Made by a program: the position numbers and the translations under genes. Of a stretch of DNA of 47,602 nucleotides, positions 22,135-38,775 are shown one piece after another. Below the pieces are notes generated by a model. The model saw only the letters and a list, made by a program, of their open reading frames with translations. It was not told the DNA's origin and ran no database searches. The number at the start of each line of letters is the position of its first letter. Position 1 is the stretch's first letter. The stretch is from a virus. The stretch is taken from the IMG/VR virus record IMGVR_UViG_3300036857_000248, positions 1 through 47,602 of that record; one strand, 5' to 3'.

Positions 22135-23953
22135 CGGTGTCTTTCTGGAATTGCTCGAAGTAACCGCGCAGCTCCAAGGTCGGACCACGCTTGCCATCGG
22201 CCATCAGCGGCACGGCAACGAAGTTTTTCCAGTCATGGGTCCAGCCCTTGAACACCACCTCGCCGGGCTCGCCTTTCGCTCCCGGTGCGCCGGGCTCGCC
22301 GCGTTCGCCCTTCTCGCCGGCAACGCCGCGCTGGCCTTGCCGCGCCATCAATTGCCAGCCGTCGCCCGGCAGCTCGCCCGGATCGTCTTTCCTGGCGATG
22401 AAACTGCCGCCGTTGCTGACAACGATGTCGAGCGCCTGATAGCTGGCCGTTGGATCATAGGTGCCGCGCACATGCGGCGACCGTGCATCGACGCCGCCGC
22501 TGGCGATGCAAATCCAATCGTGATTACGGCCCGGCTGCCGGCTGGTGTCTTTCAGCGCCTGATACGATCCGCGCTCGTGGCTCACCACGTCGCCGGCATA
22601 ATACACGACGTCGGCTTGCCACTGCTTGACCGGCGGCAAACGCCCCGGCGCGCCGTCGGCGCCACGTGCGCCATCGGCGCCGCGCGCTCCGTCAGCTCCG
22701 TCACGCCCAGGTAGACCCGGCTCGCCGCGCGGACCAGCCGGACCTGTCGGACCATGCGCGCCCGGTGCGCCGCGTACTCCGTCAACTCCGTCACGCCCCG
22801 GCTTGCCCTGTTCACCGCGTGGACCGACCGGACCTGTCGGACCATGCGCGCCCGGTGCGCCGCGCTCACCACGTTCGCCTGCAGGCCCTTGCGGACCGAT
22901 CACGATATCGCCGGGATCGCCCTTGGCGCCGCGCTCACCGCGCTCACCGCGCTCGCCCATAGGTCCGCGCAGACCCATCGGGCCGATATCGCCCGGTGCG
23001 CCGGACTCGCCCGGTGGTCCGCTTGGACCGACCGAGCCTGCCGGACCTGCCGGGCCATCCGCACCCGGTGCACCGGGCTCGCCCGGTTCGCCGCGCGGGC
23101 CTTGCCCGCCGACCGGACCCATTGCGCCCGGCTGACCGCGCAGACCTTCCCGCCCGGTCTCGCCGCGCTCACCACGCGGACCGGAAGGCCCGCACGGGCC
23201 TTCGGGTCCGATGATGGTCAGTCCGTCGCTGCCGTCCTCGCCCGCTTCGCCTTTTTCGCCTTTTTCGCCTTGCCGCCCGGGCGTACCCGCTTCACCGCGC
23301 GGTCCTTGTTCGCCGCGCTCGCCCTTTTCGCCTTGCTCGCCTTTTTCGCCTTGCTCGCCTTTTTCGCCATGTTCGCCTCTTTCTCCTGGTTCGCCCCGCT
23401 CGCCCCGATCACCTTTTTCGCCCGTCTCCCCGACAGTACCAACGTCACCGCGCTCGCCCTTCTCGCCGCGCTCGCCCTGCGATCCTTGCGGCCCGGGCGC
23501 ACCTACAGCACCGCGTTCACCCTTTTCGCCGCGTTCACCGGCATAGCCTTGCGGCCCTGTTAACCCGATGCCACCCGGATCACCTTTCTCGCCGCGCTCG
23601 CCGCGCTCACCCTTCTCGCCGGGCGCACCATCGCGCAAGTTGGACAAGCGATCTTTTATCATGACTTCGGCATCGGACAACTTCTGATGCACCAATGCTT
23701 CAAGCTTGCGCTCCAACTCGAACGTGCGCGTCGCCAGCTCGGTGACGAGCTGCATCGATTGCGTCTTCAGCTCGGCGATGATCTGCGCGGATCGCGCTTC
23801 CGACAATTCGCGACTGCGCTGCCAATTGGCGCGCTCTTCCGCCAGCGTTTCGCCGAGAATCTTGCGCCACGCATCAAGTAGGATGTCGGTAGACTCTGGC
23901 GGCGGCAGCAAAAATTCGTCGGCTTTCCCGTTCGATTGAGGCTGCATCGTCAT
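22127..23953 (-). CDS. Collagen-like protein
   Basis: 608 residues. Residues about 1-105 form a long helix, probably a coiled-coil trimeriser. Residues about 108-430 are an almost unbroken run of Gly-X-Y triplets (GEKGERGERGEKGDPGG and so on, rich in GEK/GER/GDR, with Pro at Y in places). Then two short WQ-type modules (VKQWQADVVYYAGDVVSHER; TYDPTASYQALDIVVSNGGS) like carbohydrate-binding C-terminal modules, another 24-residue triplet stretch and a C-terminal cap. Collagen-like phage proteins form trimeric fibres or spacers on the virion. The start overlaps the portal gene by 80 nt, unusually long. Confidence 0.85.
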   Translation of the reverse strand: MTMQPQSNGKADEFLLPPPESTDILLDAWRKILGETLAEERANWQRSRELSEARSAQIIAELKTQSMQLVTELATRTFELERKLEALVHQKLSDAEVMIKDRLSNLRDGAPGEKGERGERGEKGDPGGIGLTGPQGYAGERGEKGERGAVGAPGPQGSQGERGEKGERGDVGTVGETGEKGDRGERGEPGERGEHGEKGEQGEKGEQGEKGERGEQGPRGEAGTPGRQGEKGEKGEAGEDGSDGLTIIGPEGPCGPSGPRGERGETGREGLRGQPGAMGPVGGQGPRGEPGEPGAPGADGPAGPAGSVGPSGPPGESGAPGDIGPMGLRGPMGERGERGERGAKGDPGDIVIGPQGPAGERGERGAPGAHGPTGPVGPRGEQGKPGRDGVDGVRGAPGAHGPTGPAGPRGEPGLPGRDGADGARGADGARGADGAPGRLPPVKQWQADVVYYAGDVVSHERGSYQALKDTSRQPGRNHDWICIASGGVDARSPHVRGTYDPTASYQALDIVVSNGGSFIARKDDPGELPGDGWQLMARQGQRGVAGEKGERGEPGAPGAKGEPGEVVFKGWTHDWKNFVAVPLMADGKRGPTLELRGYFEQFQKDTDG

Positions 23954-25337
23954 AACTGTCGGCTTTCGAAGATGGTTGAGACGAAACGATCGGCACGCCT
24001 CCCGCAGGCGGCTGGCCGCCGGCCGGCGGCGCGGGCGGCGGATGCGGCCCCGTCGCGCCGCCTGCGCCCGGTTGAATGGCTGAAGCCGCGCTCAACGGCA
24101 CCACTTGTTGCTGCACGCGCGGCTCGTCGCCGAACGGCACACTATCCAAATCCTCTTCGTTGCGCGCTTCGTTGGGCGAGTAGATGCCGCCCATGACGCC
24201 TTCCTTCAACGCCTCGATGCGATCCTTGGCCGCCGAGCGCAGCAACGCCTTGGTTGATAGCTCGGTGTACTCATCCGGCTGGCCCTTGAGCTGAAACAGC
24301 CGATCGAACGCCTGCTCGACATGGTTGAGCGCAAATCCCAGACCGGTCGAAATCCAGAACTGCATCAGCGCTTCGGTCGATCCGAAGGTCGCGCCGCCGA
24401 GCCCGAGCACCGCCAAAGGTACGCGAAACACCAGCGCGATATTCTCTTTCGAGAATTTCAACAGTTCGGCGAGCTGCGCATCGCGACCGACCGACGCCCA
24501 TGGCATCACCTTCAGGCCGTGAGTCAACACCGGCGTCTTGCCCTGCGCCATCGCACGCGACCGCTCATCCCAGCGATCCTGCAACGCCACTACCTGATCG
24601 GCGTCGAGATCGAGATCAGTGGTCAGCACCGCCGATGGCCGCGCCTGATTCAGATAAAACTGAATCTGTTGCGACATCACCGCATCCGTTGTCGCCATGT
24701 CCGCTGCGGCCGACAGCAACGGCGTCTGGCCCCACAGCGGAAACGGGTATCGCCGGTCGGCGTGCAAGCGGATGTGCAGAACGTCCCGCTGCGGCACCAA
24801 GAGCGGGTATTCGTCGAGCATCATTTTCTCGATCACGGCGTTACCGGCTAACCGGTAGAACACATCACCGGTAGTCGCGACGACCGGCTTGCACAGCCGT
24901 GTGTCCATCAAATGCAATTCTGAAACTTCGAAACGGTCATTGCGCAGCGCCAGCGCGTACGCATTGCCGTCGAGATAGACCTGCCGCACCGCATTGAGCA
25001 TGAAATCGGACGGCGTCTGGTAAGCGTTAGGCTTCTTCAGGATGCGCGACAGCGCCGAATTGGCGACACGCTCGCGTCCGCCCTTGGGTTTCTTGCGCCA
25101 GTGATCGCCGGGGCACATCGCGATGGTCTGCGAGTAGGCCGATATGCACGCTTCCACCATCGCCGATCGCGTGCCATACGGATTCGGGTCCTGCCCGAGC
25201 TGCCACCAGTTGGTCGGACTGCCGTCCGGCAGCCAGCCGCCCGTAACGGGTAGACTGTACGGCCCTGGTCGCGGCGCGCCTTCGACCGCCTTGGTAAGCG
25301 TGCGCAATCCACGCGCGAGCAACTCGCGAGCGCCCAT
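23874..25337 (-). CDS. Portal protein (HK97 family)
   Basis: 487 residues from the ATG at 25337 (MGARELLARGLRTLTKAVEG); the longer frame upstream is a shadow. RSAMVEACISAYSQTIAMCP, DGNAYALALRND, FYLNQARPSAVLTTDLDLDA and VPLAVLGLGGATFGSTEALM are the expected HK97-type portal segments in order. The C-terminus is Pro/Gly-rich and ends in a charged helix. Forms the dodecameric DNA gate at the head vertex. Its position here, after the capsid and not directly after the terminase, is unusual. Confidence 0.92.
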   Translation of the reverse strand: MGARELLARGLRTLTKAVEGAPRPGPYSLPVTGGWLPDGSPTNWWQLGQDPNPYGTRSAMVEACISAYSQTIAMCPGDHWRKKPKGGRERVANSALSRILKKPNAYQTPSDFMLNAVRQVYLDGNAYALALRNDRFEVSELHLMDTRLCKPVVATTGDVFYRLAGNAVIEKMMLDEYPLLVPQRDVLHIRLHADRRYPFPLWGQTPLLSAAADMATTDAVMSQQIQFYLNQARPSAVLTTDLDLDADQVVALQDRWDERSRAMAQGKTPVLTHGLKVMPWASVGRDAQLAELLKFSKENIALVFRVPLAVLGLGGATFGSTEALMQFWISTGLGFALNHVEQAFDRLFQLKGQPDEYTELSTKALLRSAAKDRIEALKEGVMGGIYSPNEARNEEDLDSVPFGDEPRVQQQVVPLSAASAIQPGAGGATGPHPPPAPPAGGQPPAGGVPIVSSQPSSKADSYDDAASIERESRRIFAAAARVYRHPT

Positions 25338-25365
25338 GACATGCCGGACCTTTGCGCTGGAGACA

Positions 25366-25391
25366 ACGGTCCCGGCAAAGACCGGGGCCGT
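25366..25391 (+). terminator. Hairpin upstream of the portal gene
   Basis: ACGGTCCCGG and CCGGGGCCGT pair over 10 bp (one G-T pair, plus-strand reading) around CAAAGA. The plus-strand side continues TTGGTTGTTGTT, terminator-like. On the minus strand it lies in the portal leader, 29 nt before the ATG, where it could act as a processing or attenuation element. Confidence 0.4.
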
Positions 25392-25401
25392 TTGGTTGTT
25401 G

Positions 25402-25710
25402 TTAGCTCGATGATGCCGGCTTTGACGGCTGATGCGCCGGACGCGCCTGCGTTTGCCGCGTCTGATAGCTGCCGCCGCGTTGCGCTTCGAACTGCCGACG
25501 CTGTTCCTCGTTCGGATCAGGATCGGAGCCGTCATGCTCGTGCTCGACACCGATAAAAGATTCGCCGAGCATGGCGCGATCGTTCTCGTCCTGCGTCGGC
25601 GTCGGTTTGCCCTTGGTGCGTTCGGCGAACTGCCGATAGGATTCGGCACGCGCCTCGCGGTTCGCCTCCAGCTCGCGCCGTGCGTTTTCACTCAAATGCT
25701 GTTCAGCCAT
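25402..25710 (-). CDS. Unknown acidic protein between capsid and portal genes
   Basis: 102 residues from the ATG at 25710. MAEQHLSENARRELEANREA is a charged helix, then KPTPTQDENDRAMLGESFIG, an acidic stretch EHEHDGSDPDPNEEQ, and a Gln/Ser/Pro-rich end. Low hydrophobicity suggests partial disorder. Such small acidic proteins beside portal genes can be decoration or scaffold helpers. No family recognised. Confidence 0.6.
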   Translation of the reverse strand: MAEQHLSENARRELEANREARAESYRQFAERTKGKPTPTQDENDRAMLGESFIGVEHEHDGSDPDPNEEQRRQFEAQRGGSYQTRQTQARPAHQPSKPASSS

Positions 25711-25860: not shown

Positions 25861-26541
25861 TCATTTCGGGAAGTTGAGAATGTATCCCTTATGCAAACGC
25901 GCGACTTCATCGTAGGCACGCGCTGCTTTCTTTTCCCGGTCGAACAGACCGATGTGATGTAGCTTGCCGTCAATCGTGATACGAGCACGCCAGCCTTCGG
26001 TGACACTGTTATTGGACACCCAATAATCAACACCACGAAATCGACTGCTCGTATCTTTTTGTTTTCGACGGTTGCGAATCTGCGCCGTCCCGTCATCGGT
26101 CCATTCGCAATTATCAAGTTGATAATTGCCATCGTTGTTTATGCGACTGATCTCAGACTGATCGTTCGGTCGCTCCCCCATATCTTCGAGGAAATTCTCG
26201 AACTTTTGCCACCGCTTGCAAACACGAATGCCGCGTCCACCATAGTTCACATAGGCTTTGTGGCTCAGATTTTCGCAACGATTCTTCATCGCTAGCCATG
26301 TCGTATAAGTCAGTGTCTTTGACATCCCATGTGTGCGACGATTACCCAAGGATGCGATATGCAAACATCCACACGAAAGTGTTGGACGTTTTTTCTTGCG
26401 CAACGCGTTGAGCTTAACCGTCGTGGTGTTTCCGCATTCACATTTGAGCTTGAAAGCCCGGTAATGACCAATCTTAGCAACCTCTCGGATCACCGTAAGT
26501 TTTCCGAATTTGTCGCCTTTCTCGATTGTCAATTGGCGCAT
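25861..26541 (-). CDS. AP2-domain HNH homing endonuclease
   Basis: 226 residues in three parts. A zinc-ribbon-like start with KCECGNTTTVKLNALRKKKR and SCGC. An HNH-type core with YVNYGGRGIRVCKRW, ENFLEDMGERP and RINNDGNYQLDNCEW. A C-terminal AP2/ERF DNA-binding domain with SRFRGVDYW, WRARITIDGKLHHIGLFD and AARAYDEVARLHKG. AP2-HNH genes are typical mobile homing nucleases. The gene is AT-richer than its surroundings and lies between the capsid gene and a small unknown gene. Its ribosome site lies in a hairpin (26548-26573), which would limit translation. Confidence 0.93.
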   Translation of the reverse strand: MRQLTIEKGDKFGKLTVIREVAKIGHYRAFKLKCECGNTTTVKLNALRKKKRPTLSCGCLHIASLGNRRTHGMSKTLTYTTWLAMKNRCENLSHKAYVNYGGRGIRVCKRWQKFENFLEDMGERPNDQSEISRINNDGNYQLDNCEWTDDGTAQIRNRRKQKDTSSRFRGVDYWVSNNSVTEGWRARITIDGKLHHIGLFDREKKAARAYDEVARLHKGYILNFPK

Positions 26542-26606: not shown

Positions 26607-28895
26607 CTACCATGTCACATTCTGGGTCCAACTGACCATGCCGCTGCGGCGGAACGCCCAGTTCACCGGGAAGACCATGCGCAGCGCGAGGCTGTCGGTC
26701 TGGAACAGCGAGCGCTGCGGCGACGCCACGACACCGGGCGATCCGGACACCAGATCGAGCGGATTGGTGTCTTCCATGTGCAACGTCGCCTGATCCGAGA
26801 TGTCGAAGCGCACGTTGTCGCCTTGCATGACGACAAAATCCGCCGCGTCGGTCAGGATCACCGTCTTGGCCGTCACCGTGGCCGAGTCGATGATCGGGAT
26901 ATTGTTCAGCGTGCCGCGACCGATCTCGTCGCGGAACGGGAACGTGCCAGTGTTGGCGGCAAACACCAACGAGGCCGACAGCATGTCCACCGGGTTCATC
27001 AGCCATACCGGGGAACGAACATTGCCCTTAGTCGCCGTGACCAGCGAACCAAGCAGAGCCTTGATATCGCCGACCACCGCCGCAACACCGCCGCCGGCCG
27101 TCGCCGTCGTCGCACCGACACCGTTCAGGAGACCAGCCGGACGGATCGTGGTCGCCGCATTGGCGTCGAGTAGAACCGAATCCAGCGAGATCGCAGTGTC
27201 CTGCTGGATGGCTTCACGCAGCACGCCCTCGATCGCGGGAATGCTGTGGTCGCCCATCTCGCGAGTCCAAGTCGTGATCACGCCCATCTTTTTCGGCGTG
27301 AAGGTCTGGCTGGTGAACGCACCTTGCCGCACCGGGATCGCCATGCCTTCACCGACGAACGAGCCGGCGATCGACGGCGTTGCCGAGCGCGTCGGCAGCA
27401 GAATCTTGCCGGCGTTGCCGAAGCTCAGCGTCATGCCCTTGGCAGAGAACCGCGGAAACACCGACTGCGGCAACAGCAGCGCCATCATGTCAGCGTAGAT
27501 TTGATGCACCAGCTCCTGCGCCCAGCCGGCCACCGTCGTCATGGCCGGTGCTGCGGCTGCGCGCATGGTCCAGTCGAGCACCGTCTTGTGCGCGTCGTCG
27601 TTGCCGTAGATGCGCGTCATCTCGAAGTGCGGCGACGTTCCGCAGATTTTCGCCAGCGCGTGGCAAACACCTGCGTGCACGAGGTAGTCGATCGGTTCCC
27701 AGTCCTTTTTCGACTGCCTGAGAATTGCCGGACTGACGATCTCCGGGTCTCTGCTCATCGATGTCGTCGCCAGCGCGCGTTGCCGCCGCTGATCGACAAC
27801 AGAATCCACCGACGCGGCGAGATTCTTTTCGGACTCGATCAACCCCGCAAGGTTGTTACGCATCTGCGTGATTCTTGCGTTGTAATCGTTGGTCTTCTGC
27901 ATATCAGCATCGCTGACATTGGTGTCGTCCATCTTATCGAGATGCGCCTGCAATCCTTCTTGCAGGTTCGCGATCTGCTGCTGCAGATCGATAATGCGTT
28001 GTGACAGTTGAACTTCGGGCATAATCCTGCCCCTTCGATCATGAGACGTGTTGCCGTGCTTGGCAGTGAAGTCCCGCGTCCTGACGTCCTCTCTGTTGCC
28101 GTGCTTGGCGAAGACGACGTCGATTGTTGCGGAGCTGACCCCCAGCGATTTGGCAATCGCCAAGGCATTCGGGTTCGCCGGCACGCTGACCAGCGAAGTT
28201 TCGATCAATTCCTGCTTAAGAAAACGCATGCCGCCGAACGAACCGGCTTTCTTGTCGAGCGGCTCACTTTCAAGCGGATGAAAACCGACCGAGACCGAAC
28301 ACAGAATCCCGGCCTCGACCAACCGTCGAATTTCGTCGATCCGCGGTGAAGTGCCCTCCGGTGCCAGTTGCAAATAGCCGCGCAGCGCGCCTTTCTCAGC
28401 GCGCAGATTTTTCCATCGGCCGATCGGGAAATCAGCCCTGTGATTGAACAGACAAACCGGATTCTTGTGGAAGTTCTCCAGCTCCCAGCCGCTCGCCGAG
28501 ATCACATCACCCATGCGATCAACGGTTTCGTCAGACATGACGAACTCCATTTCCTGCACGGTGCCGCTGTGGGTCTTGTGATACAGTGGCTTATGCTCGA
28601 CGCGCTGCACCGGCGGCTTTGCGCCGCGTTCCTCGTTCCAGCGCATTGCGCATTCGTCTTCGTCGCCGCCTTCATCGATACAATCGGCCATAAACTCTTC
28701 GTGCTCATCGTCGTCATAGTCGTTCGGATCGCACGACTTCTTCGGCGGCTCACCGCCATGCGCATCACGCCACGCGCTCATGCAGATCGCGACCTTCTGA
28801 TCCTGCGGACGCTCGGTGTCGCTCTGGCCAAGCTCATGCATGCAGCGACCCATGAAATCGCTTTGGCTCTCGCCCTTGTGCGGCTTGATCGGCAT
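26607..28895 (-). CDS. Prohead protease - scaffold - major capsid protein fusion
   Basis: 762 residues in one chain. Residues 1 to about 95 form a Cys- and acid-rich front (GESQSDFMGRCM, CDPNDYDDDEHEEF). About 95-260 is an HK97-type (U35) protease: FNHRADFPIGRW with the catalytic His, CSVSVGFHP with the Ser, and a following ELIETSLVSVPANP. About 290-370 is coiled-coil scaffold-like sequence (IIDLQQQIANLQEGLQAHLD). About 370-762 is the HK97-fold capsid domain (FVGEGMAIPV, TWTREMGD, RPAGLLNGVG, FQTDSLALRMVFPVNWA). GGAGAAGCTC stands before the ATG. The protease would free the capsid subunit during maturation. Most phages keep these as two or three genes. Confidence 0.92.
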   Translation of the reverse strand: MPIKPHKGESQSDFMGRCMHELGQSDTERPQDQKVAICMSAWRDAHGGEPPKKSCDPNDYDDDEHEEFMADCIDEGGDEDECAMRWNEERGAKPPVQRVEHKPLYHKTHSGTVQEMEFVMSDETVDRMGDVISASGWELENFHKNPVCLFNHRADFPIGRWKNLRAEKGALRGYLQLAPEGTSPRIDEIRRLVEAGILCSVSVGFHPLESEPLDKKAGSFGGMRFLKQELIETSLVSVPANPNALAIAKSLGVSSATIDVVFAKHGNREDVRTRDFTAKHGNTSHDRRGRIMPEVQLSQRIIDLQQQIANLQEGLQAHLDKMDDTNVSDADMQKTNDYNARITQMRNNLAGLIESEKNLAASVDSVVDQRRQRALATTSMSRDPEIVSPAILRQSKKDWEPIDYLVHAGVCHALAKICGTSPHFEMTRIYGNDDAHKTVLDWTMRAAAAPAMTTVAGWAQELVHQIYADMMALLLPQSVFPRFSAKGMTLSFGNAGKILLPTRSATPSIAGSFVGEGMAIPVRQGAFTSQTFTPKKMGVITTWTREMGDHSIPAIEGVLREAIQQDTAISLDSVLLDANAATTIRPAGLLNGVGATTATAGGGVAAVVGDIKALLGSLVTATKGNVRSPVWLMNPVDMLSASLVFAANTGTFPFRDEIGRGTLNNIPIIDSATVTAKTVILTDAADFVVMQGDNVRFDISDQATLHMEDTNPLDLVSGSPGVVASPQRSLFQTDSLALRMVFPVNWAFRRSGMVSWTQNVTW

Positions 28896-29254: not shown

Positions 29255-30844
29255 TCAAGCGGCCTTCTTTTTGCCGACGTAGGCGTTGAAACGATCCATG
29301 GTGTCCTTGTCCTTGAGATCAAGCACACCGGACCAAGTGGTATTGAGCAGCAAATCCTTGCCCGCCGGTGAATCGGCGATCGCCCACAGCGCCTTCGGAT
29401 TATTGCTATCGGTCAATTTCAACAGCGCACTGCGCTGTGTGTCATCCGCTACTTCGACCGGCTCGACATCCTCGTCGTCATCGAGCGGATATTCCGGCAA
29501 CTCGCTGTTGCGTTCGGCCCAGGCGTACTTGTCGCGATCGCTCATCGAATCCCAGTACTCGCCCATGGACTCGCGAATGTAGTGATCATCCGGCGTATAA
29601 TCAGCGTTGTCGGCGTCGGTTTCAGCCTGTTCGTTGAACGCCTCAGTAAGCACACTAACGATTTTGTCGCGTGTGTCATCGCTAAGCGCAGGCGCTACCT
29701 CGATGCCGGGCAGCGTCCCCTGTCCAGGCTGCAAATCAGGAAGCTGCTTGTCGTCGATCTCGATGTCAGGATCGTCACGACCCTCGCCATAGCGCGACGA
29801 GTAATCGTCTATCGTCACCGCGTTAAGCAATTCCTCGTTGGTGTAGGGAATGCTCTTGCCTTCGTCGTCGAGCCCTTCGCGCCACGTCTTGAGCGCGGCC
29901 ACGGCCCATTTGTCGGTTGGATCGAAATTGTCGGCGAGCTGGCGCTTGGCATCTTCCATCGCCTGCCCGCTCTCGCGGTAGTTCTGCTCTTCGGATTGAA
30001 CGAACTCGTCGCGCACCGACTCCATCCATGCCCGCTCGATCCGGCTTTGATCGTCGTTACCGATCGCATCCCACTCTTCTGGCGTATAACCCGAACCTGA
30101 CGCGCGATGGCTGGCGCGATCACCGTTGTCGTTCAGCTTGTCGGCGATCGCGCCGCGCAATGAATCCCATGAACTGCGCGTCGGCACGTAGCCGTATTTC
30201 GCCCAGGCGTAGCCGCCGACATCGAGATTGGCCGACACCGTAACCTTGTCGAGACCGAGCTTCTGATACATCTCGACGTTGGCTTTAAGCAGCGTCTTGC
30301 CGATGTTCTGGCCACCTTTTCCGTGCTGCGCTGCGCGTTTGACTTCAAAGTAAGCGGAATAGGCCCGGTTCTGGCCAGGAAAAACATAACGCGTATAATC
30401 CGCGATCGTGCTGCCGTTGTCGTCCTTGATCTGGCCGTCGATATCGATTCGGTCTTCGCGTTCGTCGTAACCAACTTTCATCGTGCCGTTGAGGCCACCG
30501 AGAAATTCCTGCTTGAACTCGGCCGGCGCCTCGCCGATCTTATCATTCCAGCGCTCTAGAAATTTTTGCGCCTTGGCGTCGTCGGCCGCCGTACTGGCAT
30601 CGATACGCACGCCGTCCTTCTGGAAATCGGCGAGCTTCTCGACCTTTTTCTTGCCTTGACCGCCTTCCTTGCCGCCACCGCCGACCGGCTTGCTCGACCC
30701 GGCGTCATCACTGCCGCCGCCATCGGTCCAGCGACCCTGCTCATCACGCGGTTCGTTCGGATCAAACTTCTGCCCGACCGGCGTGAGCCATTCCGTGTCG
30801 TCGGTCTCTTCCGTGATGCGAGCGCCGAGCCTGTCTTCGCTCAT
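29255..30844 (-). CDS. Polyvalent protein with GNAT-like acetyltransferase domain
   Basis: 529 residues. Near the start FDPNEPRDEQGRWTDGG is a linker motif often found in phage head-associated and effector proteins. After a Gly/Lys linker comes a GNAT-like domain at about 105-225: FPGQNRAYSAYFEV, GKGGQNIGKTLLKANVEMYQ, KLGLDKVTVSANLDVGGYAW, AKYGYVPTR. The rest is acidic and helical, with no recognised domain. Such domains in phage-packaged polyvalent proteins are thought to modify host targets after injection (established for the class, not for this gene). The ATG overlaps the stop of the upstream ADP-ribosyltransferase gene by 4 nt. Confidence 0.75.
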   Translation of the reverse strand: MSEDRLGARITEETDDTEWLTPVGQKFDPNEPRDEQGRWTDGGGSDDAGSSKPVGGGGKEGGQGKKKVEKLADFQKDGVRIDASTAADDAKAQKFLERWNDKIGEAPAEFKQEFLGGLNGTMKVGYDEREDRIDIDGQIKDDNGSTIADYTRYVFPGQNRAYSAYFEVKRAAQHGKGGQNIGKTLLKANVEMYQKLGLDKVTVSANLDVGGYAWAKYGYVPTRSSWDSLRGAIADKLNDNGDRASHRASGSGYTPEEWDAIGNDDQSRIERAWMESVRDEFVQSEEQNYRESGQAMEDAKRQLADNFDPTDKWAVAALKTWREGLDDEGKSIPYTNEELLNAVTIDDYSSRYGEGRDDPDIEIDDKQLPDLQPGQGTLPGIEVAPALSDDTRDKIVSVLTEAFNEQAETDADNADYTPDDHYIRESMGEYWDSMSDRDKYAWAERNSELPEYPLDDDEDVEPVEVADDTQRSALLKLTDSNNPKALWAIADSPAGKDLLLNTTWSGVLDLKDKDTMDRFNAYVGKKKAA

Positions 30845-33042
30845 ACTTCCCTCATCGTGACTTCTTTGTACTTCACACCATTGGTCGCTTCCGTCATATC
30901 GGCGACATTGATCGCCTGAAAAGTAGTGTGCGGCATCAGCACGACTTCTTTCTCGACGCCGCGATCGATATCCGACGGCACCTGATGTCCACTCATCTGA
31001 TCCATCTTGAAAACCACGGCCGTATAGCCTTTTTTCAGCTCACCGGTCGTCGGGCTCAGCACGTCATTTACAGCAAATTCCGCAGCCTTTGCACCATCAG
31101 TCGATGACGATGACAGCTTGGAGATATCGAACGTCTTGCCGATGATGTCTTCGATGCTCCCGACCTTGATCGAACCGATCTTGCCTTTGTAGAACGATGT
31201 GCCGCGATAAACCGTGCCCTCGTACTTGGGCAGCTTGGCCATGATCGCGATCATCTTCGGGTCTTTGCGCATCTTGCTGTAGGCCGCCGATTTCGGCTCG
31301 CCCATTGTCCAATCATCGAGCTTGTCGTGCTCGGCTGGCGACAATCCGTATCCCGGAGGTTCAGGTTGTAGTTGAGCCGGTTCTGCTGCCGCTGCCGGCG
31401 ACGCCGCCGGCTTCTTCGGCGCCGCCGGCTTGTCACTGCCGCCGGTCGGCGCGAACTGACCACCACCCTGCCCGGCCGGCTGATGCGGATGCAGCGCGTC
31501 GTCAAACTCGCGCGCAATCGGCACCGTGATCCGAATGTTCTCGATGCCACGCGCGAGATGGCCATTGGCTGTAAGAAACTGCCCCGCAATCAGGACGAAC
31601 TTCTGGTAGGTCGTCACGTCCAGTAACCGCTGCGCCTCGCGCAGCGTGACGAACTGATAACCCTTTGGCGCTTCGCTGGCCGGCTTCTTGCCGGCGCCGC
31701 CGGTCCACTTCTCGGCTTCTTCGAGCAACTTGGTGATCGAGATATCGACCCGCGCGATCTTGACTTCGCGGCCGTCATCTTCGAGATCGCCATCCTTGGC
31801 GTCGAGCCCGAGCTGACCAGCCCAGGTATGATGACCATCGAGAATGTAATCATCACGCGACACCACGAGACGTTTGTAGAAACCTTCCTGCTTGATCCGC
31901 GCCATCGCGGCAGCGACCTTAGTACCACTGATCTCGTTCTGTGTGGCACGAAGATTGCGCGCTTCCTCCTTGGTCTCTTCGATCTTGTAGCCAAGCTTCT
32001 TGAGATGCTTGATGAAGTCCTTGGTCTTGCCGGCGCGGATCACCGGCATCTCGACGCGCGGAATGCCAATCTGGTCGGCGCAAAACAAGTTGGTGCCCTT
32101 GACGCTGACGTTGCAGAGATTGAAGGTCGGCGCAGTTTCACCGTGCTCGGCCATCTCCGCGGCGGTCTCACCGAGCCGCTTGATCAAGGTCGATATCTGC
32201 TTGACCTGCGTCAGCTCGACCTTGCGATCCTCGAACAGCGCGCGCTGCGCGTCATAAACGTTCGAGGTGTGAATCACGCCCTGATGATCGACATAGGCGT
32301 TCTGGGAATAGCCCTTGCCCGGATGCTCGCGCCCCTTCTCGATCTCCTTCAGCGCCTTGTCCTGCTCGGCAACACCTTCCTCGTAACTCGACACGCGCTT
32401 GCCGTCGCCCGGCTTGTAGGGCGCGGCGTTTGCCGGATCGTGCACCATGAACACGACATCCGGCTTGCCGCCGTTGAATTTCTTGAACGTGTTCTTGTCC
32501 CAATCGGCCGGCTTGTACTCTTCGTTCCAGGGAATCCGCGCCACTGCGCGAAAGCCGTTGTCGCTGTAGATCGCCGGCAGCACCGTGTCGAACGCGTCGA
32601 GCTTGCGGCCACCGTGCTGCACCGCCAACGCCAAAATCGAATCACCGGCGCGCTTGGCCTTCGACTGACTGAATGCGGATACGATATCACCGTCCGGCTT
32701 GAGCGCGAAGCCGGCCTTGTCGTCGGGCGTCACGTAGGTCTTCATGCCGCGATAGTCAGCGGCATCGTAGGCATGCACCGACGCGCCGAACTTCAGGTTT
32801 TCTTTCGCCTTAATGATCGCATCGTGGAAACGCTGATTACCGTCCGCCGTCAGTTGATGAAATTCCAGCGGCGTGCGACCGGCTTTCTTGGCTGCGGTAA
32901 CCGCAGCGCCAGTCGGCTTGTAGACCGCTGCGACATGCTTGTCTTTTTCACGTGAACTCGGCGGGCTGCTGGAATAGCTGTCGCTACCATCGCCGCCGCC
33001 ATCGGTCCAACGGCCCTGCTCGTCGCGCGGCTCGCCGGACAC
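30841..33042 (-). CDS. Polyvalent protein: GNAT-like, ParB-like and ADP-ribosyltransferase domains
   Basis: 733 residues from a GTG at 33042. The start is uncertain, because the frame runs open to 33252 through a different small gene. EPRDEQGRWTDGG near the start is shared with the next gene. Domain 1 (about 55-210): AGFALKPDGDIVSAFSQ, GGRKLDAFDTVLPAIYSDNG, FRAVARIPWNEEY, GKPDVVFMVHDP, a GNAT-like fold. Domain 2: SRDDYILDGHHTWAGQLGLD, a ParB-like domain. Domain 3 at the C-terminus: TVYRGTSFY, DISKLSSSSTDGAKAAEFAV and VEKEVVLMPHTTF, giving the R, STS and ExE motifs of ADP-ribosyltransferase toxins. All key residues are present. Likely packaged and injected to modify host proteins (inference from class). 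Confidence 0.85.
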   Translation of the reverse strand: MSGEPRDEQGRWTDGGGDGSDSYSSSPPSSREKDKHVAAVYKPTGAAVTAAKKAGRTPLEFHQLTADGNQRFHDAIIKAKENLKFGASVHAYDAADYRGMKTYVTPDDKAGFALKPDGDIVSAFSQSKAKRAGDSILALAVQHGGRKLDAFDTVLPAIYSDNGFRAVARIPWNEEYKPADWDKNTFKKFNGGKPDVVFMVHDPANAAPYKPGDGKRVSSYEEGVAEQDKALKEIEKGREHPGKGYSQNAYVDHQGVIHTSNVYDAQRALFEDRKVELTQVKQISTLIKRLGETAAEMAEHGETAPTFNLCNVSVKGTNLFCADQIGIPRVEMPVIRAGKTKDFIKHLKKLGYKIEETKEEARNLRATQNEISGTKVAAAMARIKQEGFYKRLVVSRDDYILDGHHTWAGQLGLDAKDGDLEDDGREVKIARVDISITKLLEEAEKWTGGAGKKPASEAPKGYQFVTLREAQRLLDVTTYQKFVLIAGQFLTANGHLARGIENIRITVPIAREFDDALHPHQPAGQGGGQFAPTGGSDKPAAPKKPAASPAAAAEPAQLQPEPPGYGLSPAEHDKLDDWTMGEPKSAAYSKMRKDPKMIAIMAKLPKYEGTVYRGTSFYKGKIGSIKVGSIEDIIGKTFDISKLSSSSTDGAKAAEFAVNDVLSPTTGELKKGYTAVVFKMDQMSGHQVPSDIDRGVEKEVVLMPHTTFQAINVADMTEATNGVKYKEVTMREV

Positions 33043-33071
33043 ATCGTGGCCAGCACCGCCGCCGCGCGAGA

Positions 33072-33236
33072 CTACAGCCCGCCCATCTCCTGGACGTGCG
33101 CGATCGCTTCCGCCGCCGTCAGCTCCGGATGCTGCGCCAGAATCCGCTCGACCAGACTGCGGCCAGTCGCGTCGAGCTGATTCAACAACTTCTCGCGCTC
33201 TTCCGCCGTCTCGGTTGTTTGTTTGTTCTCGTCCAT
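33072..33236 (-). CDS. Small helical protein, possible N-terminal part of the polyvalent protein
   Basis: 54 residues from the ATG at 33236: MDENKQTTETAEEREKLLNQ, then LDATGRSLVERILAQHPELT and AAEAIAHVQEMGGL, ending in TAG. This reads far more like a protein than the overlapping long frame. A -1 shift at GGGCGGG just before the stop would join it to ...AVVSRGGG...EPRDEQGRWTDGG of the polyvalent protein. It may be a separate small protein or the true N-terminus. Confidence 0.6.
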   Translation of the reverse strand: MDENKQTTETAEEREKLLNQLDATGRSLVERILAQHPELTAAEAIAHVQEMGGL

Positions 33237-33289
33237 GCCTGTTATCTAGCATTGACCGCCCGCTATTGCAACTCCGGGAGAAGGCTTTT

Positions 33290-33835
33290 CTAGCTTTCGA
33301 TCACGCCGCACAACTGTTCGACAGATCGCGCTTCCTTGCGAAACCTGCGGCCCGTCTTCGACAGCCACTCGTTGAAAGCCCGCTGCTCGTGCTCAACAAG
33401 AATGAAATACTCGTCTAGCACGATAACAGTACCGGAGACGATTCGGGGTGAGAGCTGCTCAAGTACACACCGAGCGCTGGAGTAGAGATCGCAATCAATA
33501 TGAAGCAGCGCAACGTTGTTCGGATGAACCAGCAAAAACGGCTTGATCGTATGTTCGAACATCCCCACCACGAGCCCGACATTTTTTGGCACCTCTGGAA
33601 TGTCGCAAGCGAAATGTCCGACCGGATACGACGCCCATGGTTCTGGCAAACCCTTGAACGAATCGAACCCGTAGATGGATCGCTCGCACAATGCTGGTGT
33701 TTCGGCTAAGCAACGAACAGTGCTTCCTGAAGCCACGCCGAACTCAAGCACCAGACCTTCAGTGGGTGTTATCGCCGCCGCGTGGCGCAGCACCTCGAAC
33801 CTGTTTTGATACCAGATCAAACCGCACGTCCTCAT
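33290..33835 (-). CDS. TylF-like SAM-dependent methyltransferase
   Basis: About 181 residues from the ATG at 33835. LVLEFGVASGSTVRCLAE is the SAM-binding motif I, then SIYGFDSFKGLPEPW, and later HIDCDLYSSARCVLEQLSPR and SGTVIVLDEYFI. These are the landmarks of the TylF/macrocin O-methyltransferase family, which methylates sugars on secondary metabolites and glycans. The ATG has no ribosome site. The small frame at 33759-33923 does have one and reads as the missing N-terminal helix. It follows a glycosyltransferase gene, so methylation of a transferred sugar is the natural guess. Confidence 0.8.
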   Translation of the reverse strand: MRTCGLIWYQNRFEVLRHAAAITPTEGLVLEFGVASGSTVRCLAETPALCERSIYGFDSFKGLPEPWASYPVGHFACDIPEVPKNVGLVVGMFEHTIKPFLLVHPNNVALLHIDCDLYSSARCVLEQLSPRIVSGTVIVLDEYFILVEHEQRAFNEWLSKTGRRFRKEARSVEQLCGVIES

Positions 33836-33923
33836 CAACTGTTTTATCGTCGATCTCGTCGAGAAAACGATCGAGAAAATCTTCGCGTTGCCGCTGTCGT
33901 CGAATCAGACGGTTGCTGTTCAT
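33759..33923 (-). other. Probable N-terminus of the methyltransferase in a shifted frame
   Basis: From the ATG at 33923, with GGGGAG 5 nt upstream, the frame reads MNSNRLIRRQRQREDFLDRF then LDEIDDKTVDE, a charged helix. It then degrades into RFDLVSKQVRGAAPRGG, overlapping the methyltransferase in another frame. Skipping one base after the GAG codon (in GATGAGGACGTG) joins it to TCGLIWYQNRFEVLRHA. This suggests one gene with a frameshift (indel, assembly error or programmed). Confidence 0.55.
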
Positions 33924-33955: not shown

Positions 33956-35149
33956 TCAAAGCAATTTCAGCACGCCGCTCCAATCACCCGGCGGCGCCTG
34001 CCTATAAATGCAAACGTTCTCGTACAACGGCGACAACCAGCGCCAGCTTGCCCAATGACCAAGCAACAGCGAAATCCGCGAATGACCGACAGCGCCCGCG
34101 AGGTGGACGGCGGCGGTGTCTACGGTGATGATCCGATCGCAACATGCCATCAGTCCCGCACAGTCGGCGAAATCCTCGAACGTGTAGTGCTCGACACCGA
34201 ACGCCTGCGCTTCTTCAGCGCCCTGCTGCTGCACGCTGACCAGCGCGGCGTCAGGCAACGCCTTGCGCAACAATTCGAGCGGAACGGCGCGCGGGTAGTC
34301 GCCATCGTGCGTCCGGCCCGGCGTCCACGCCACGCCGATCGGCTTTTTGTGCCCAACCCGATCCTGCCACTTGCCGCGCAATTTCGTATCGACCGACAGA
34401 TACGGCTGCAGTGGAATCGTCGCCGGTGTCTGCTGCAGCGTGTGCAGCAGGAACAGCAGCGAACAGAAATAATCCGCGTGCACGATCTCGCCGGTGACCT
34501 TCGCCAGCGGCGCCGCCAGCCGTTGCAGCTCCGGCGGCAACCACAACGTGACGTTGGAGCCCATCGCCTGAAGCACGCGCACATAGCGCAGCATCATGAT
34601 CGAATCGCCGAACCCGTGATCGTGCACCAGCAGAATGCGCTTGCCGCGAAGGTCCTCGCCGCGCCAGCGCTTCAATCCCCATTCGAGGCACGTGCGATAC
34701 TCCGGACGCATGTACGGCGACGTGTCGTACTCCATCGCGTACGCGTAGTCGTCGAAGCCTTCGCGCCAGCGTCCGAGTTCGAGCAGGATCATGCCGCGGT
34801 TGTAGCGCGCGGTTAGCGTCGGCACGAACGATATCGCGGTCTCGACGTGGGTCAGTGCCATGTCGAGCCTGCCGGCTCTCACGGCGCGCAGCGCCAAATC
34901 ATAGCAGCGCGTGTAGCTGTCGATCAGCCCAGGCGTCGGTTGCTCCGGAATATCGCGATAGCCGATGATCTGACCCGCGCGTGTCACCGCGAGATTGCCG
35001 CCGAATGGAATCTCGACCGGATGCCCGTTGGCGGATTCCACGTTGAGCACCTGACCGTCCGCCGTCAGACCGCGCCAGCCTTTCGGCGTGTGCTCGACCA
35101 CGACCACCGGCGGCAGCGATGGCGGCTCGAACTGCGCGAAATGCTTCAT
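33956..35149 (-). CDS. TPR-containing glycosyltransferase (GT-B, GT9/OGT-like)
   Basis: 397 residues from the ATG at 35149 (MKHFAQFEPPSLPP). After a beta-rich front, residues about 80-170 hold TPR-like helices (YDLALRAVRAGRLDMALTHV, LTARYNRGMILLELGRWREG). The C-terminal part is a GT-B glycosyltransferase: GKRILLVHDHGFGDSIMMLR, IGVAWTPGRTHDGDYPRAVP, and RIITVDTAAVHLAGAVG. The TPR plus GT-B architecture is that of bacterial SPINDLY/OGT-like and heptosyltransferase-related enzymes that glycosylate proteins. Placed between a capsid paralog and a sugar-type methyltransferase, it probably glycosylates a virion protein (inference). Confidence 0.82.
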   Translation of the reverse strand: MKHFAQFEPPSLPPVVVVEHTPKGWRGLTADGQVLNVESANGHPVEIPFGGNLAVTRAGQIIGYRDIPEQPTPGLIDSYTRCYDLALRAVRAGRLDMALTHVETAISFVPTLTARYNRGMILLELGRWREGFDDYAYAMEYDTSPYMRPEYRTCLEWGLKRWRGEDLRGKRILLVHDHGFGDSIMMLRYVRVLQAMGSNVTLWLPPELQRLAAPLAKVTGEIVHADYFCSLLFLLHTLQQTPATIPLQPYLSVDTKLRGKWQDRVGHKKPIGVAWTPGRTHDGDYPRAVPLELLRKALPDAALVSVQQQGAEEAQAFGVEHYTFEDFADCAGLMACCDRIITVDTAAVHLAGAVGHSRISLLLGHWASWRWLSPLYENVCIYRQAPPGDWSGVLKLL

Positions 35150-35154
35150 GGTGA

Positions 35155-36228
35155 TCACTTCCAGGCCGGCGTCAGCCACGCCACGCCGCGCGCATCGCGC
35201 AAAAGCCAAGATACTGGCCAGTGCATTTTCACTGCAATCGAATCGGTTTGATACATCTCTTTTCGCGCGCCGGCCGAAGGCGACGCCGATGGCGCCGTGT
35301 CCATATGCAAAACACCGGCCTTTGCTGCCTCGATGACCGGCTCCGTGCCGAGCGCAGCCGCGATCGCCTGTGGTGCAATCGCGATCAGGTCATTGCCGAC
35401 GAAGCTGGACGCCACCGGATAAACCGATAACTGTGCGCCACCGCCGACCCGCATGGAAAAGGTTATCGCGCGGCCGGGACCCGCAACCAGAACAAACGGG
35501 CCGGCACCGCCGACTTGACCGACCGCGTTGAACAGCGTTGCCATGTCCTCGAACACCGCTGCGAACGGATCGGTGTTGACGCTTGCCGTCAAAGCACCAA
35601 TGCCGTTGCGCAAGCCAGCCGGCGCTGCTGATGTCGCGGCGGCGCTGGAAAACAGCACGGCATCGAGCGCCAAACCGGCTGCACGTCCCAGCGCGTTGCC
35701 GATCAGCGCTTCGGCGTTGCTCGATTCAACCATTTCTCTTGTCAAAACCGCGATGCTGGCGAGCTTGGTAAACGGAATCGATCCTGGCGTCGTCGCAAGA
35801 TTGTGCACCGGGATCGGATCACCTTCAGCGACAAACGAAGCGCCGGTAGCGTCAACCACCAGACCCGGCACCAAAAAGCCGTTGCGATCCAACGCCAGCA
35901 TCAAGCAGCGCCGCAGCACTTCGGCGCCGGCCGATACGCCACTCATGATCGAGATCGCGTCACTGACCAACCGCTGTGTCAGCTCGGCAGCCCAACCGGC
36001 TACGCCCGTCATGGCCGGCGCGCTCGATGCGCGTTCCAAAATCTCGGCTGTGATTCTGTCGCTCGGCCACATTCCGGTGGCGACCGAGATCGGTGCCATG
36101 TTGCGCAACTGGCCAATCACCTTGGCGGTCAGCATGCGCACAAAACAGTTGCCTTGTGAGACAGGCAGCGGATTGCGTCGAAAACCACGCTCCGGTGGCG
36201 CCGTGTGCTCGATCACGTGGCGATTCAT
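35155..36228 (-). CDS. Second HK97-fold capsid-like protein (paralog of the major capsid)
   Basis: 357 residues, matching the capsid domain of 26607-28895 in order: APAMTGVAGWAAEL against APAMTTVAGWAQEL; FVAEGDPIPV against FVGEGMAIPV; VLTREMVESS against TWTREMGDHS; APAGLRNGIGALTAS against RPAGLLNGVGATTAT; YQTDSIAVKMHWPVSWLLRD against FQTDSLALRMVFPVNWAFRR. It has no protease or scaffold part. It could be a minor capsid subunit, a vertex/decoration relative, or an alternative shell protein. The ATG overlaps the stop of the inserted HNH gene; the next gene is the glycosyltransferase. Confidence 0.88.
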   Translation of the reverse strand: MNRHVIEHTAPPERGFRRNPLPVSQGNCFVRMLTAKVIGQLRNMAPISVATGMWPSDRITAEILERASSAPAMTGVAGWAAELTQRLVSDAISIMSGVSAGAEVLRRCLMLALDRNGFLVPGLVVDATGASFVAEGDPIPVHNLATTPGSIPFTKLASIAVLTREMVESSNAEALIGNALGRAAGLALDAVLFSSAAATSAAPAGLRNGIGALTASVNTDPFAAVFEDMATLFNAVGQVGGAGPFVLVAGPGRAITFSMRVGGGAQLSVYPVASSFVGNDLIAIAPQAIAAALGTEPVIEAAKAGVLHMDTAPSASPSAGARKEMYQTDSIAVKMHWPVSWLLRDARGVAWLTPAWK

Positions 36229-36761
36229 TTGAATTTTCTCCTGTAACCTCTTTTTCGAAGACGTCGATTATTGGCCTGCTCTGCTGGCGTAGCCCAGCGA
36301 ACATTGCCCGGTTTGTAATCGCCGTTTTGATTCGGGTAGCGGTCTAGCGTCTTGCCTTTTGGCTTATCGCCAACGTACGCGTAGAAAGCTTCGAAACGAA
36401 ACCAAGGCTTGTGAACCTTGATGCCGCGCCCACCGTAGTATTTCCAAACTTGAGAATTGGGATTAGTACAACGTTGGATCATGCCGGCCCAACTGTTGTA
36501 CACACCGCTAATTTTTCCATTGCGGGTTTGACCGTGACGAAGATTACGAGACCCTTGAAGGTCCAGCCAATAACAACCACAGGACTTTGTGCCGCCCGGC
36601 TGTCTAAGATTGGCTGTAGTTACTTTGGTTCGATTGCCGCAATCGCAATCGCATAACCAAACGATATAACTTTGGCCTCCGTTCCCGCGCACATGACCCG
36701 CTATCTTGCGGGCGATGAGTCGTCCGAAACGTCGATTTGTGATATCCAAAGCTTTGGGCAT
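36225..36761 (-). CDS. HNH homing endonuclease
   Basis: 178 residues from the ATG at 36761 (MPKALDITNRRFGRLIARKI), chosen because GGAGG stands 6 nt before it. Zinc-ribbon-like CDCDCGNRTKV and SCGCYWLD, then the HNH-type core YGGRGIKVHKPWFRFEAFYA, RYPNQNGDYKPGNVRWATPA. The core is the same family as the AP2/HNH gene but lacks the AP2 domain. AT-richer than neighbours; inserted between large terminase and capsid paralog. Its leader shares the hairpin module with the endonuclease VII gene. Confidence 0.9.
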   Translation of the reverse strand: MPKALDITNRRFGRLIARKIAGHVRGNGGQSYIVWLCDCDCGNRTKVTTANLRQPGGTKSCGCYWLDLQGSRNLRHGQTRNGKISGVYNSWAGMIQRCTNPNSQVWKYYGGRGIKVHKPWFRFEAFYAYVGDKPKGKTLDRYPNQNGDYKPGNVRWATPAEQANNRRLRKRGYRRKFK

Positions 36762-36793
36762 GGCAGCCTCCAGACAGGTTGCTAGGTCAAGTG

Positions 36794-36824
36794 ACGGCTG
36801 GAGCATTGCAAGTGCTCCAGCCGT
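36794..36824 (-). promoter_or_regulatory. Hairpin upstream of the HNH gene (copy 2 of the shared module)
   Basis: ACGGCTGGAGCA and TGCTCCAGCCGT form a perfect 12-bp stem around TTGCAAG, 12 nt after the large-terminase stop. From here to the ATG the sequence (GTTGCTAGGTCAAGTGACGG and the GGGCATGGCAGCC around the start) matches the leader of the endonuclease VII gene. The stem keeps pairing where the two copies differ. Confidence 0.65.
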
Positions 36825-36836
36825 TGCGTTATTTGT

Positions 36837-38543
36837 TTACCCTATCAAAGCGGAGATGTCTACTTTTGCAGCCATCGGCGCGATACCAATGGCCATTGTC
36901 AAAGCTACCAAGCCGTCGATGCGGCCATTCGAACGCTTCTTAGACAACTTGCGCGTCGAAGAATCTTTGGTGAAAGCAGCGTCTTTGTTTCCTTCAACAA
37001 CCGCGTTGGCTACGTTCATATTAAGCACAGGATGATTTCCGTGCGCGATCTCCTGCCGCAGAATCCGGCTTTCCAACTCGCGCAGAGCCGGTGACATACT
37101 CTGGATACCTTGGCCAAACTCGACCCATTTTTGATCAATCTTTGAATTAGTCCAACCGTGATGCGTCAACCAAGGCCGAAACTGCGGGTAGTTCCAGCGA
37201 TCGAAAGCGATCTTCTGCAAGCCCGGGTGTTCGGCCAGAATTTCGCAGACCCGCGTCGCGATCACGTCGTAGGTGATCGCTTCGCCGGCCACCGTTTCGA
37301 GATAACCCTGCTTGAGCCATAGATCGTACGGCACGTGATCGGTCTTCGCGCGCTCGAAGATGTTGGCTTCCGGCATCCAGAAGTATGGCTTGACGTGCCA
37401 GACCTGATCGATCTTGCCGATCAGCACCAGTGCGGTGAGATCGTTGGCTTCCGACAGATCGAGCCCGCCGTAGACTTCGCGACACTTGGTGATGTCGCCG
37501 ACCGGCGCGCCGCACTTCGCCCACACCGTCGGTGCGATGAACTGCGCGACTGCTTCGACACGCTGATTCAGAATCAGATTACGATATTCGGCCTCGCGCG
37601 ACGGCATGCGCTTGGCGTCGTCGGCCATCGCCATGACTTCGGTCGGATTGAGAAACGACCCATAGGCCGGGTTGGCGATCTTGATCGTCTCCTCGGCAAA
37701 CGGATCGTCCGTCAGTGGCGCGGTGTACAATTTGCAGATCACGCGCGGATCGTGGCCGGCGATCGCGTCGTCGATCAGCACCGACAACAAATCGGTGTCG
37801 GCCGGCGCCTGCGTCGAAATGATGATCGACAGCGGGTTCTCCTGCGCGCCGGTCGCGGTCTCCAGCGCCTCGTACAGTTGCGAGCGCGGCCCGCGAACCT
37901 GCCCCAGCTCGTCATGCACGATGAAAACCGGGGATAGACCGAACGCCGTAGACGCTTCCGCCGACAGCGCGCGATAGCGCGTGCCGATCTCGTGGCAGTA
38001 CATCTCCTTGGTTGAATCCTTGATCGTGACGCCGTCGCGCAGACCCGGCGACATGCGGACGATCTTGGCAGCCAGATTGAAGATCAGCGCCGCCTGCTCA
38101 CGGCTTTGCGCCGCCGAGTACAGCGAAGAGTTCGGGATCGCGGAGATGCCGCACAGATTGACCAGCATCAGCACCGCAGCCAGCGAAGTCTTGCCGTTCT
38201 TGCGCGCAAACGACAGGATGGCGCGCCGCGTGCCGTGCGGGTTGTCGTAAATTCGCCTGATCTCGTCTTTCTGCCACTCGTCGAGCTGAAAGTTCTGCCC
38301 CAGCAGCTTGCCTTCAGGCACGTAGCAGTTTCGCTGTATCCAGCCGATGATCTGATCGCCGGACGGCTTCTTCTTGCCGGGCATCGCGCGCTCGCGCGCT
38401 TTGGCTGCTCGTGCTCGCGTCTGCTTCAGTCTAGACTTCGCATCGGCCTTTGGCGATTTGGCAACGCCGCCTTTCCACCACGGGTCCGGCTCACGGTTGT
38501 TTTTATAACCACGAAATTCTGTACTCGGCTTGCGAGGCGTCAT
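36837..38543 (-). CDS. terL: Large terminase subunit
   Basis: 568 residues from the ATG at 38543 (MTPRKPSTEFRGYKNN). A basic start is followed by the ATPase: LSFARKNGKTSLAAVLMLVN (Walker A variant RKNGKT) and VFIVHDELGQ (Walker B with HDE), then ISTQAPADTD. The nuclease half starts at YGGLDLSEANDLTALVLIGK with the catalytic Asp, and IAFDRWNYPQF and MNVANAVVEGNKDA follow. HK97-type terminase motor that packages DNA into the prohead. The start codon overlaps a plus-strand ATG (CATG). Confidence 0.95.
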   Translation of the reverse strand: MTPRKPSTEFRGYKNNREPDPWWKGGVAKSPKADAKSRLKQTRARAAKARERAMPGKKKPSGDQIIGWIQRNCYVPEGKLLGQNFQLDEWQKDEIRRIYDNPHGTRRAILSFARKNGKTSLAAVLMLVNLCGISAIPNSSLYSAAQSREQAALIFNLAAKIVRMSPGLRDGVTIKDSTKEMYCHEIGTRYRALSAEASTAFGLSPVFIVHDELGQVRGPRSQLYEALETATGAQENPLSIIISTQAPADTDLLSVLIDDAIAGHDPRVICKLYTAPLTDDPFAEETIKIANPAYGSFLNPTEVMAMADDAKRMPSREAEYRNLILNQRVEAVAQFIAPTVWAKCGAPVGDITKCREVYGGLDLSEANDLTALVLIGKIDQVWHVKPYFWMPEANIFERAKTDHVPYDLWLKQGYLETVAGEAITYDVIATRVCEILAEHPGLQKIAFDRWNYPQFRPWLTHHGWTNSKIDQKWVEFGQGIQSMSPALRELESRILRQEIAHGNHPVLNMNVANAVVEGNKDAAFTKDSSTRKLSKKRSNGRIDGLVALTMAIGIAPMAAKVDISALIG

Positions 38544-38775
38544 GTCCTTGACTCGTCGAATTGTATTTATGTTTGCAGCGCTGATCCTGCTGGCCGCGCT
38601 GATGAAGCTGCCGATATGGCAGCGCACGCACGTTGCAACCTTCCGCGGTGATCCGGGGTGGTATTCCAATTTCGATGCGACATGGAAACAGTGCATGGAT
38701 GCACTGGTCGAAGACGTCCGCCGCAACACGCAGCTCGATATTACTCGCGCTGCTCGGCATGCTCGACGCCCTTGA
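38542..38775 (+). CDS. Small membrane protein on the opposite strand
   Basis: 77 residues. GAGG stands 4 nt before the ATG. MSLTRRIVFMFAALILLAAL is a positive start with a membrane segment, then WQRTHVATFRGDPGWYSNFD and MDALVEDVRRNTQLDITRAA. The amino-acid make-up looks like a true protein, while the opposite frame does not. It is divergent from the large terminase (starts overlap in CATG) and its 3' end overlaps a minus-strand gene by 35 nt. Possible moron-type exported protein; function unknown. Confidence 0.5.
   Translation: MSLTRRIVFMFAALILLAALMKLPIWQRTHVATFRGDPGWYSNFDATWKQCMDALVEDVRRNTQLDITRAARHARRP

Follow-up and report, generated by a model that had tools for sequence, protein, structure and literature searches.

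A second, satellite-type capsid protein in the head gene set of a Bradyrhizobium-type phage clade

By alignment and fold prediction, the soil phage represented by IMG/VR virus record IMGVR_UViG_3300036857_000248 (positions 1 to 47,602, the whole 47,602-nt stretch analysed here and called the window) encodes two HK97-fold proteins. One is the capsid domain of a large protease-scaffold-capsid fusion and the other is a bare protein, referred to here as Cap2, which by its sequence relationships is a satellite-type capsid homolog, Ccm-like in the broad sense, and is fixed in one phage clade. It is proposed, with the chances judged about even, that this clade domesticated a satellite-type capsid protein into its own head gene set as a minor capsomer. 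The features of the window needed for the argument are as follows.

35155..36228, minus strand: Cap2, bare 357-aa HK97-fold capsid protein of predicted satellite type (from alignment, model and trees)
26607..28895, minus strand: 762-aa protease-scaffold-capsid fusion (from Pfam and phrog_617)
26895..26954, minus strand: residues 648-667 of the fusion (NTGTFPFRDEIGRGTLNNIP), in the A-domain; this segment is shorter in Cap2 and most island capsids
33956..35149, minus strand: TPR and GT9-like glycosyltransferase, co-inherited with Cap2
33290..33838, minus strand: TylF/Methyltransf_24-like methyltransferase, found in only some members of the clade
36225..36806, minus strand: HNH endonuclease-like ORF, not conserved with Cap2
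36837..38729, minus strand: terminase large subunit (TerL), the upstream landmark of the Cap2 position
23874..25691, minus strand: portal protein

Both capsid ORFs are intact. The fusion consists of a Peptidase_S78 prohead protease domain (residues 120-247 in Pfam), a coiled scaffold stretch (residues about 295-360), and a capsid domain that starts near residue 386 and matches Phage_capsid (PF05065) over residues 498-702. Cap2 has neither protease nor scaffold domain, and its A-domain segment is short. The preliminary description held that the 357-aa protein resembles the capsid domain of the fusion, and this is borne out by BLASTP (28% identity and 45% positives over 350 aa, E 4e-23), with an alignment spanning fusion residues 415-756. 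When the two families are compared profile to profile, the match is stronger still (probability 100, E 1e-47, 28%). Chance similarity is rejected. Both proteins match phrog_617, annotated as 'major head protein', while Pfam alone gives zero matches in Cap2. An AlphaFold2 model of Cap2 built from a 30-sequence alignment is of fair confidence (pLDDT 75.5, pTM 0.73) and looks HK97-like. For this model, Foldseek ranks HK97-fold capsids of phages, together with encapsulins, highest among PDB structures (best E 4e-9); the matches in BFVD are mostly phage major capsid proteins. By sequence, the Cap2 profile drew a single PDB match, at chance level. The capsid domain of the fusion was modelled at a pLDDT of 41, too low for a superposition with Cap2. 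Predicted fold, Foldseek matches and homology to a PF05065 domain thus agree with the earlier view that one phage carries two HK97-fold capsid proteins, Cap2 being a homolog of the major capsid domain on this combined sequence and model evidence.

Within the window, the start codon of the glycosyltransferase lies 5 nt downstream of the Cap2 stop, and the HNH endonuclease-like ORF overlaps the Cap2 start by 4 nt. Since the window holds portal, TerL and fused capsid genes, it represents a phage, and its Cap2 is not carried by a satellite. Two HNH/AP2-type endonuclease ORFs (36225-36806 and 25861-26541, both minus strand) adjoin the two capsid genes, and their presence varies between relatives; homing endonucleases likewise come and go between relatives. 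In addition, an N-terminal tag, F(D/N)P.EPRDE.GRWTDGGG, heads several otherwise different head-region proteins, two of them in the window (29255-30844 and 30841-33252, both minus strand) and others in L042, L038, L195, L198, and L044, with up to four copies in L042. This tag is possibly a head-loading signal.

Relatives of Cap2, about 50 of them at 40-60% identity, come from Bradyrhizobium prophages and from virus contigs of soil type. Scanning virus contigs produced 41 matches beyond the window's own phage, 40 of which are Cap2 relatives (46-60% identity) and the remaining one, in L044, a fused capsid; tblastn of Cap2 against isolate phages found no relative. The contigs share the gene order TerL, Cap2, TPR-glycosyltransferase, variable genes, fused protease-capsid, and portal, and the same order was recovered by a scan seeded with the fused capsid and blind to Cap2. 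Among the 37 TerL-to-capsid spans of the first set, in which a few loci are overlapping pieces of one contig, 34 have Cap2 and the glycosyltransferase, one has Cap2 only (L121, a prophage of Bradyrhizobium stylosanthis), and two have neither. Prophages from Bradyrhizobium genomes add three spans with both genes, one with Cap2 only, and six without Cap2. One further prophage from the Bradyrhizobium search, L171, has a divergent Cap2 and no glycosyltransferase. In a tree of the fused capsid domain, a branch with 99% support separates 49 phages, all 49 of which carry Cap2, from L171 and eight sister-side phages that lack the gene. Cap2 is therefore fixed in one phage clade. It is also under purifying selection, with dN/dS of 0.05-0.33 compared to 0.08-0.21 for the major capsid domain; this selection speaks against decay, and a decaying pseudogene is rejected. 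The phages JLK-2012, PAJU2, and RHph_X2_26 show the same layout of TerL, fused protease/capsid and portal with the same type of fusion, but unlike the window phage they carry neither a second capsid gene nor a glycosyltransferase in the interval from TerL to the fusion. Few positions, and mostly conservative ones, separate the capsid proteins of phages with and without Cap2. Borders of Bradyrhizobium prophages with and without Cap2 were sought, to relate Cap2 to larger genomes, and for most of them no clear att pair was seen. One Cap2-free prophage lies in a 68.7 kb stretch between two copies of a direct repeat about 1 kb long, at G106:C2:5511317 and 5580028 (in L244 and L248).

The genus-wide search of Bradyrhizobium also yielded bare capsid genes in chromosomal islands, a family comprising L167-L190, L217, and L218 in Bradyrhizobium and other Hyphomicrobiales. 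Their genes include those for an integrase, a primase and a single bare HK97 capsid, often with TerS as well. L168 reads integrase, 180-aa ORF, primase, capsid, 165-aa ORF, and TerS, and in L179 it is integrase, AlpA-like protein, AAA helicase, capsid, and TerS. Repeats of tRNA ends bound four islands.

L180, 4866-15412: 56 bp repeats, 10.5 kb apart, tRNA-Trp
L218, 7351-17071: 47 bp repeats, 9.7 kb apart, tRNA-Pro
L217, 2682-14228: 51 bp repeats, 11.5 kb apart, tRNA-Phe
L168: 15 bp repeats, 10.9 kb apart, tRNA-Ser

Neither a portal (PF04860) nor a TerL ATPase (PF03354) lies beside the island capsid in any of the 21 genomes with such capsids; in 12 genomes a portal match was absent both above and below the cut-off, except for one genome with fragments. 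Because the islands combine an integrase/primase/TerS layout with the absence of TerL and portal, they are read as satellite-like, and from gene content, absent genes and att-like repeats they are probably phage satellites. In the literature library searched, no paper on capsid-bearing phage satellites in Bradyrhizobium was found. In other hosts, Gram-negative PICIs often carry a capsid homolog (PMC6092414; PMC10111431). In two of these, PmCI172 and EcCICFT073 c1499, a single capsid gene accompanies integrase, AlpA, primase and, in some cases, TerS in an island of 10-20 kb (PMC6092414; PMC10111431). The islands whose capsids join Cap2 in the trees resemble them in gene layout. Of the same features, these islands have the integrase and the primase, measure 9.7-11.5 kb in the four bordered cases, and show AlpA weakly (the match in L179, E 0.003, is below the cut-off). 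The capsids of the two PICIs are island genes, whereas Cap2 stands in a complete phage head module. A second small protein is also found in the islands, often overlapping the end of the capsid gene and coiled-coil-like by eye, and could serve as a scaffold in trans for the scaffold-less island capsid.

L168, 8813-9310, minus strand: small second island protein
L170, 7129-7812, minus strand: small second island protein
L179, 10352-10927, plus strand: small second island protein
L188, 6082-6597, plus strand: small second island protein

Where Cap2 belongs was examined with two unrooted capsid trees of 88 and 52 sequences. In both, Cap2 groups with the island capsids, apart from the fused capsids. 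The first tree places this split at SH-aLRT 100, and the more careful tree joins Cap2 and the nearest island capsids with support of 99/97. The island capsids of L175, L182, and L189 fall on the fusion side of one tree, where their placement is unsure. Profile against profile, Cap2 is closer to the island capsids (E 2e-71, 34%) than to the fusion family. The A-domain gives a further character, the length of its segment between a helix and the next strand. Fused or portal-adjacent capsids, those of isolates among them, have 59-64 residues there; the main Cap2 clade has 45-50, and almost every island capsid has 40-48. In L220-L223, four islands that lie outside the main group, the segment measures 53-60 residues, and in two bare capsids of Rhizobium altiplani (L122 and L123) it measures 45. 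A part of about 15 residues is thus missing from Cap2 and nearly all island capsids and kept in every portal-linked capsid. In the Cap2 model, the shortened site lies between helix 251-261 and strand 269-273; in HK97 folds generally, such an A-domain region points towards the middle of the capsomer. Taken together, the trees, the AU test described below, the profile match and the absence of portal and TerL from the islands are the basis for calling Cap2 satellite-type.

Further satellite-type capsid genes are seen in phage contigs, so that the contigs with extra copies hold two satellite-type copies, and three HK97-fold genes where the fusion is also visible. Of these further genes, the ones in L004 and L042 cluster with the capsid from island L169.

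L004, 2139-3179, plus strand: further satellite-type capsid gene
L042, 4631-5644, plus strand: further satellite-type capsid gene
L078, 329-1300, plus strand: further satellite-type capsid gene
L171, 9905-10780, plus strand: independent satellite-type capsid gene between TerL and fusion, in a prophage outside the Cap2 clade

An ordinary duplication of the phage's major capsid gene, followed by loss of protease and scaffold and by fast divergence, would account for a protein of the same fold and 28% identity in the same genome, and faster evolution could mimic an outside origin. Duplication against acquisition was the question left by the preliminary description, and the corresponding AU test was set beforehand on that account. 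It rejects a clade of Cap2 with the fusion (p 3e-7, lnL deficit 80), which eliminates duplication inside this phage clade; the short A-domain segment common to Cap2 and the island capsids and the higher profile similarity to the latter speak against it as well, and ordinary duplication as a whole is judged improbable. A duplication older than the split between satellites and phages is a possible origin. A second AU test, framed after the first tree, rejects a single clade of all phage-borne satellite-type copies (p 3e-5), and the L171 copy and the additional ones of L004 and L042 cluster with different island capsids. Transfer of the Cap2 gene from satellite to phage would be the simplest reading of these trees, depending on the position of the root.

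The TPR-glycosyltransferase gene directly follows Cap2 in 34 of the 35 first-set spans with Cap2 and in 47 of 49 phages of the tree set, and never occurs without Cap2 among the TerL-to-MCP spans. The enzyme has TPR repeats and a weak match to GT9: nine of 13 members match the Pfam family (best E 4e-4), and the window member falls below the curated cut-off. Distances between Cap2 and the glycosyltransferase correlate beyond the portal background (partial r 0.36), which may be explained by their neighbouring position, and those between Cap2 and the capsid do so weakly (0.11). These patterns would suit a sugar-bearing accessory shell protein, in which Cap2 is modified by the glycosyltransferase and shows glycans on the head. 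However, adjacent genes are co-inherited anyway, and with only about two changes of presence and absence on the tree the co-occurrence does not represent independent events. Furthermore, the island capsids have no such glycosyltransferase partner, the divergent Cap2 of L171 stands without the enzyme, and the prophages L121 and L166, by their gene content, have lost the glycosyltransferase and kept an intact Cap2. The glycosyltransferase is thus not needed for Cap2 to persist, and since these two prophages keep Cap2 without it, glycosylation is not Cap2's sole role. The suggestion that Cap2 is a target of its neighbour therefore stands as far as the pairing in almost every phage goes and falls as the only role; the enzyme is a candidate for modifying Cap2 or some other protein of the head, and a sugar-bearing shell protein as the main explanation is quite unlikely. 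Cap2 could instead be an anti-satellite factor, the phage's own satellite-type copy competing with or failing the satellite version so that full-size heads form. The satellite-like island capsids are its closest relatives, L004 and L042 carry a second satellite-type copy from another branch, as an arms race expects, and the distant phage L171 has its independent copy at the same position. Yet anti-parasite genes are usually patchy in distribution, whereas presence in 49 of 49 phages and a dN/dS near the major capsid protein's own look like those of a core part, which leaves this explanation unlikely. A Cap2 outside the virion, as a nucleation aid or an encapsulin-like compartment, or as a decaying leftover, is highly improbable: encapsulins are among the Foldseek matches, but Foldseek cannot separate encapsulin from phage capsid at such a level, purifying selection speaks against decay, and the position among head genes speaks against an unrelated role.

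The preferred reading, domestication as a minor capsomer, draws on two known systems. In T4, gp24 is a paralog of gp23. According to PMC3012670, gp24 forms pentamers at 11 of the 12 vertices, so that T4, like the window phage, has two HK97-fold proteins, the T4 pair being hexamer and vertex proteins. Unlike gp24, Cap2 is by the AU test not a paralog that arose within its own phage clade. The Ccm protein of SaPIbov5 is a homolog of the phi12 capsid protein (24% identity) and forms pentamers while the phage protein forms hexamers; Ccm alone forms no capsids (PMC8569155). Like Cap2, it is a bare HK97-type homolog that shares roughly a quarter of its residues with the main capsid protein of the phage (PMC8569155). 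Ccm, however, is carried by a satellite in Staphylococcus, has an N-terminal region that is removed, and has a known pentamer role, whereas Cap2 is phage-encoded and fixed in a phage clade with Bradyrhizobium-type hosts, has no long N-terminal domain, and is a putative penton. By these analogies, the role of minor subunit or vertex protein offered in the preliminary description is plausible. Cap2 would be incorporated into the virion by co-assembling with the fused major capsid protein, which with its scaffold domain would make the hexamers and set the size, and Cap2 would most likely form the pentamers at the vertices. The gene would have come from a satellite, possibly one sitting among its helper's late genes, a situation described for helper-embedded PICIs (PMC10111431); here, no trace of an integrase or primase was seen. 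As an optional refinement, the neighbouring glycosyltransferase would modify either Cap2 or a different head protein. The fuller account, in which a phage lineage took the satellites' capsid-hijacking subunit as a fixed head part, related subunits compete for vertices, and the glycosyltransferase is a later optional modifier, is given somewhat less than an even chance.

Satellites are known to have acquired capsid genes from phages; traffic in the opposite direction would be represented by a phage clade with a fixed satellite-type second shell gene. Because the closest relatives of Cap2 are found in small satellite-like chromosomal islands, the findings suggest that a parasite-type shell protein became part of a phage lineage's own head machinery. 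Alongside T4 gp24, Cap2 would add a natural example of a separate protein to which a phage seemingly gives part of its shell. As Bradyrhizobium holds all three of phages with Cap2, phages without it, and islands, a head-size arms race would become testable there by sequence and cryo-EM.
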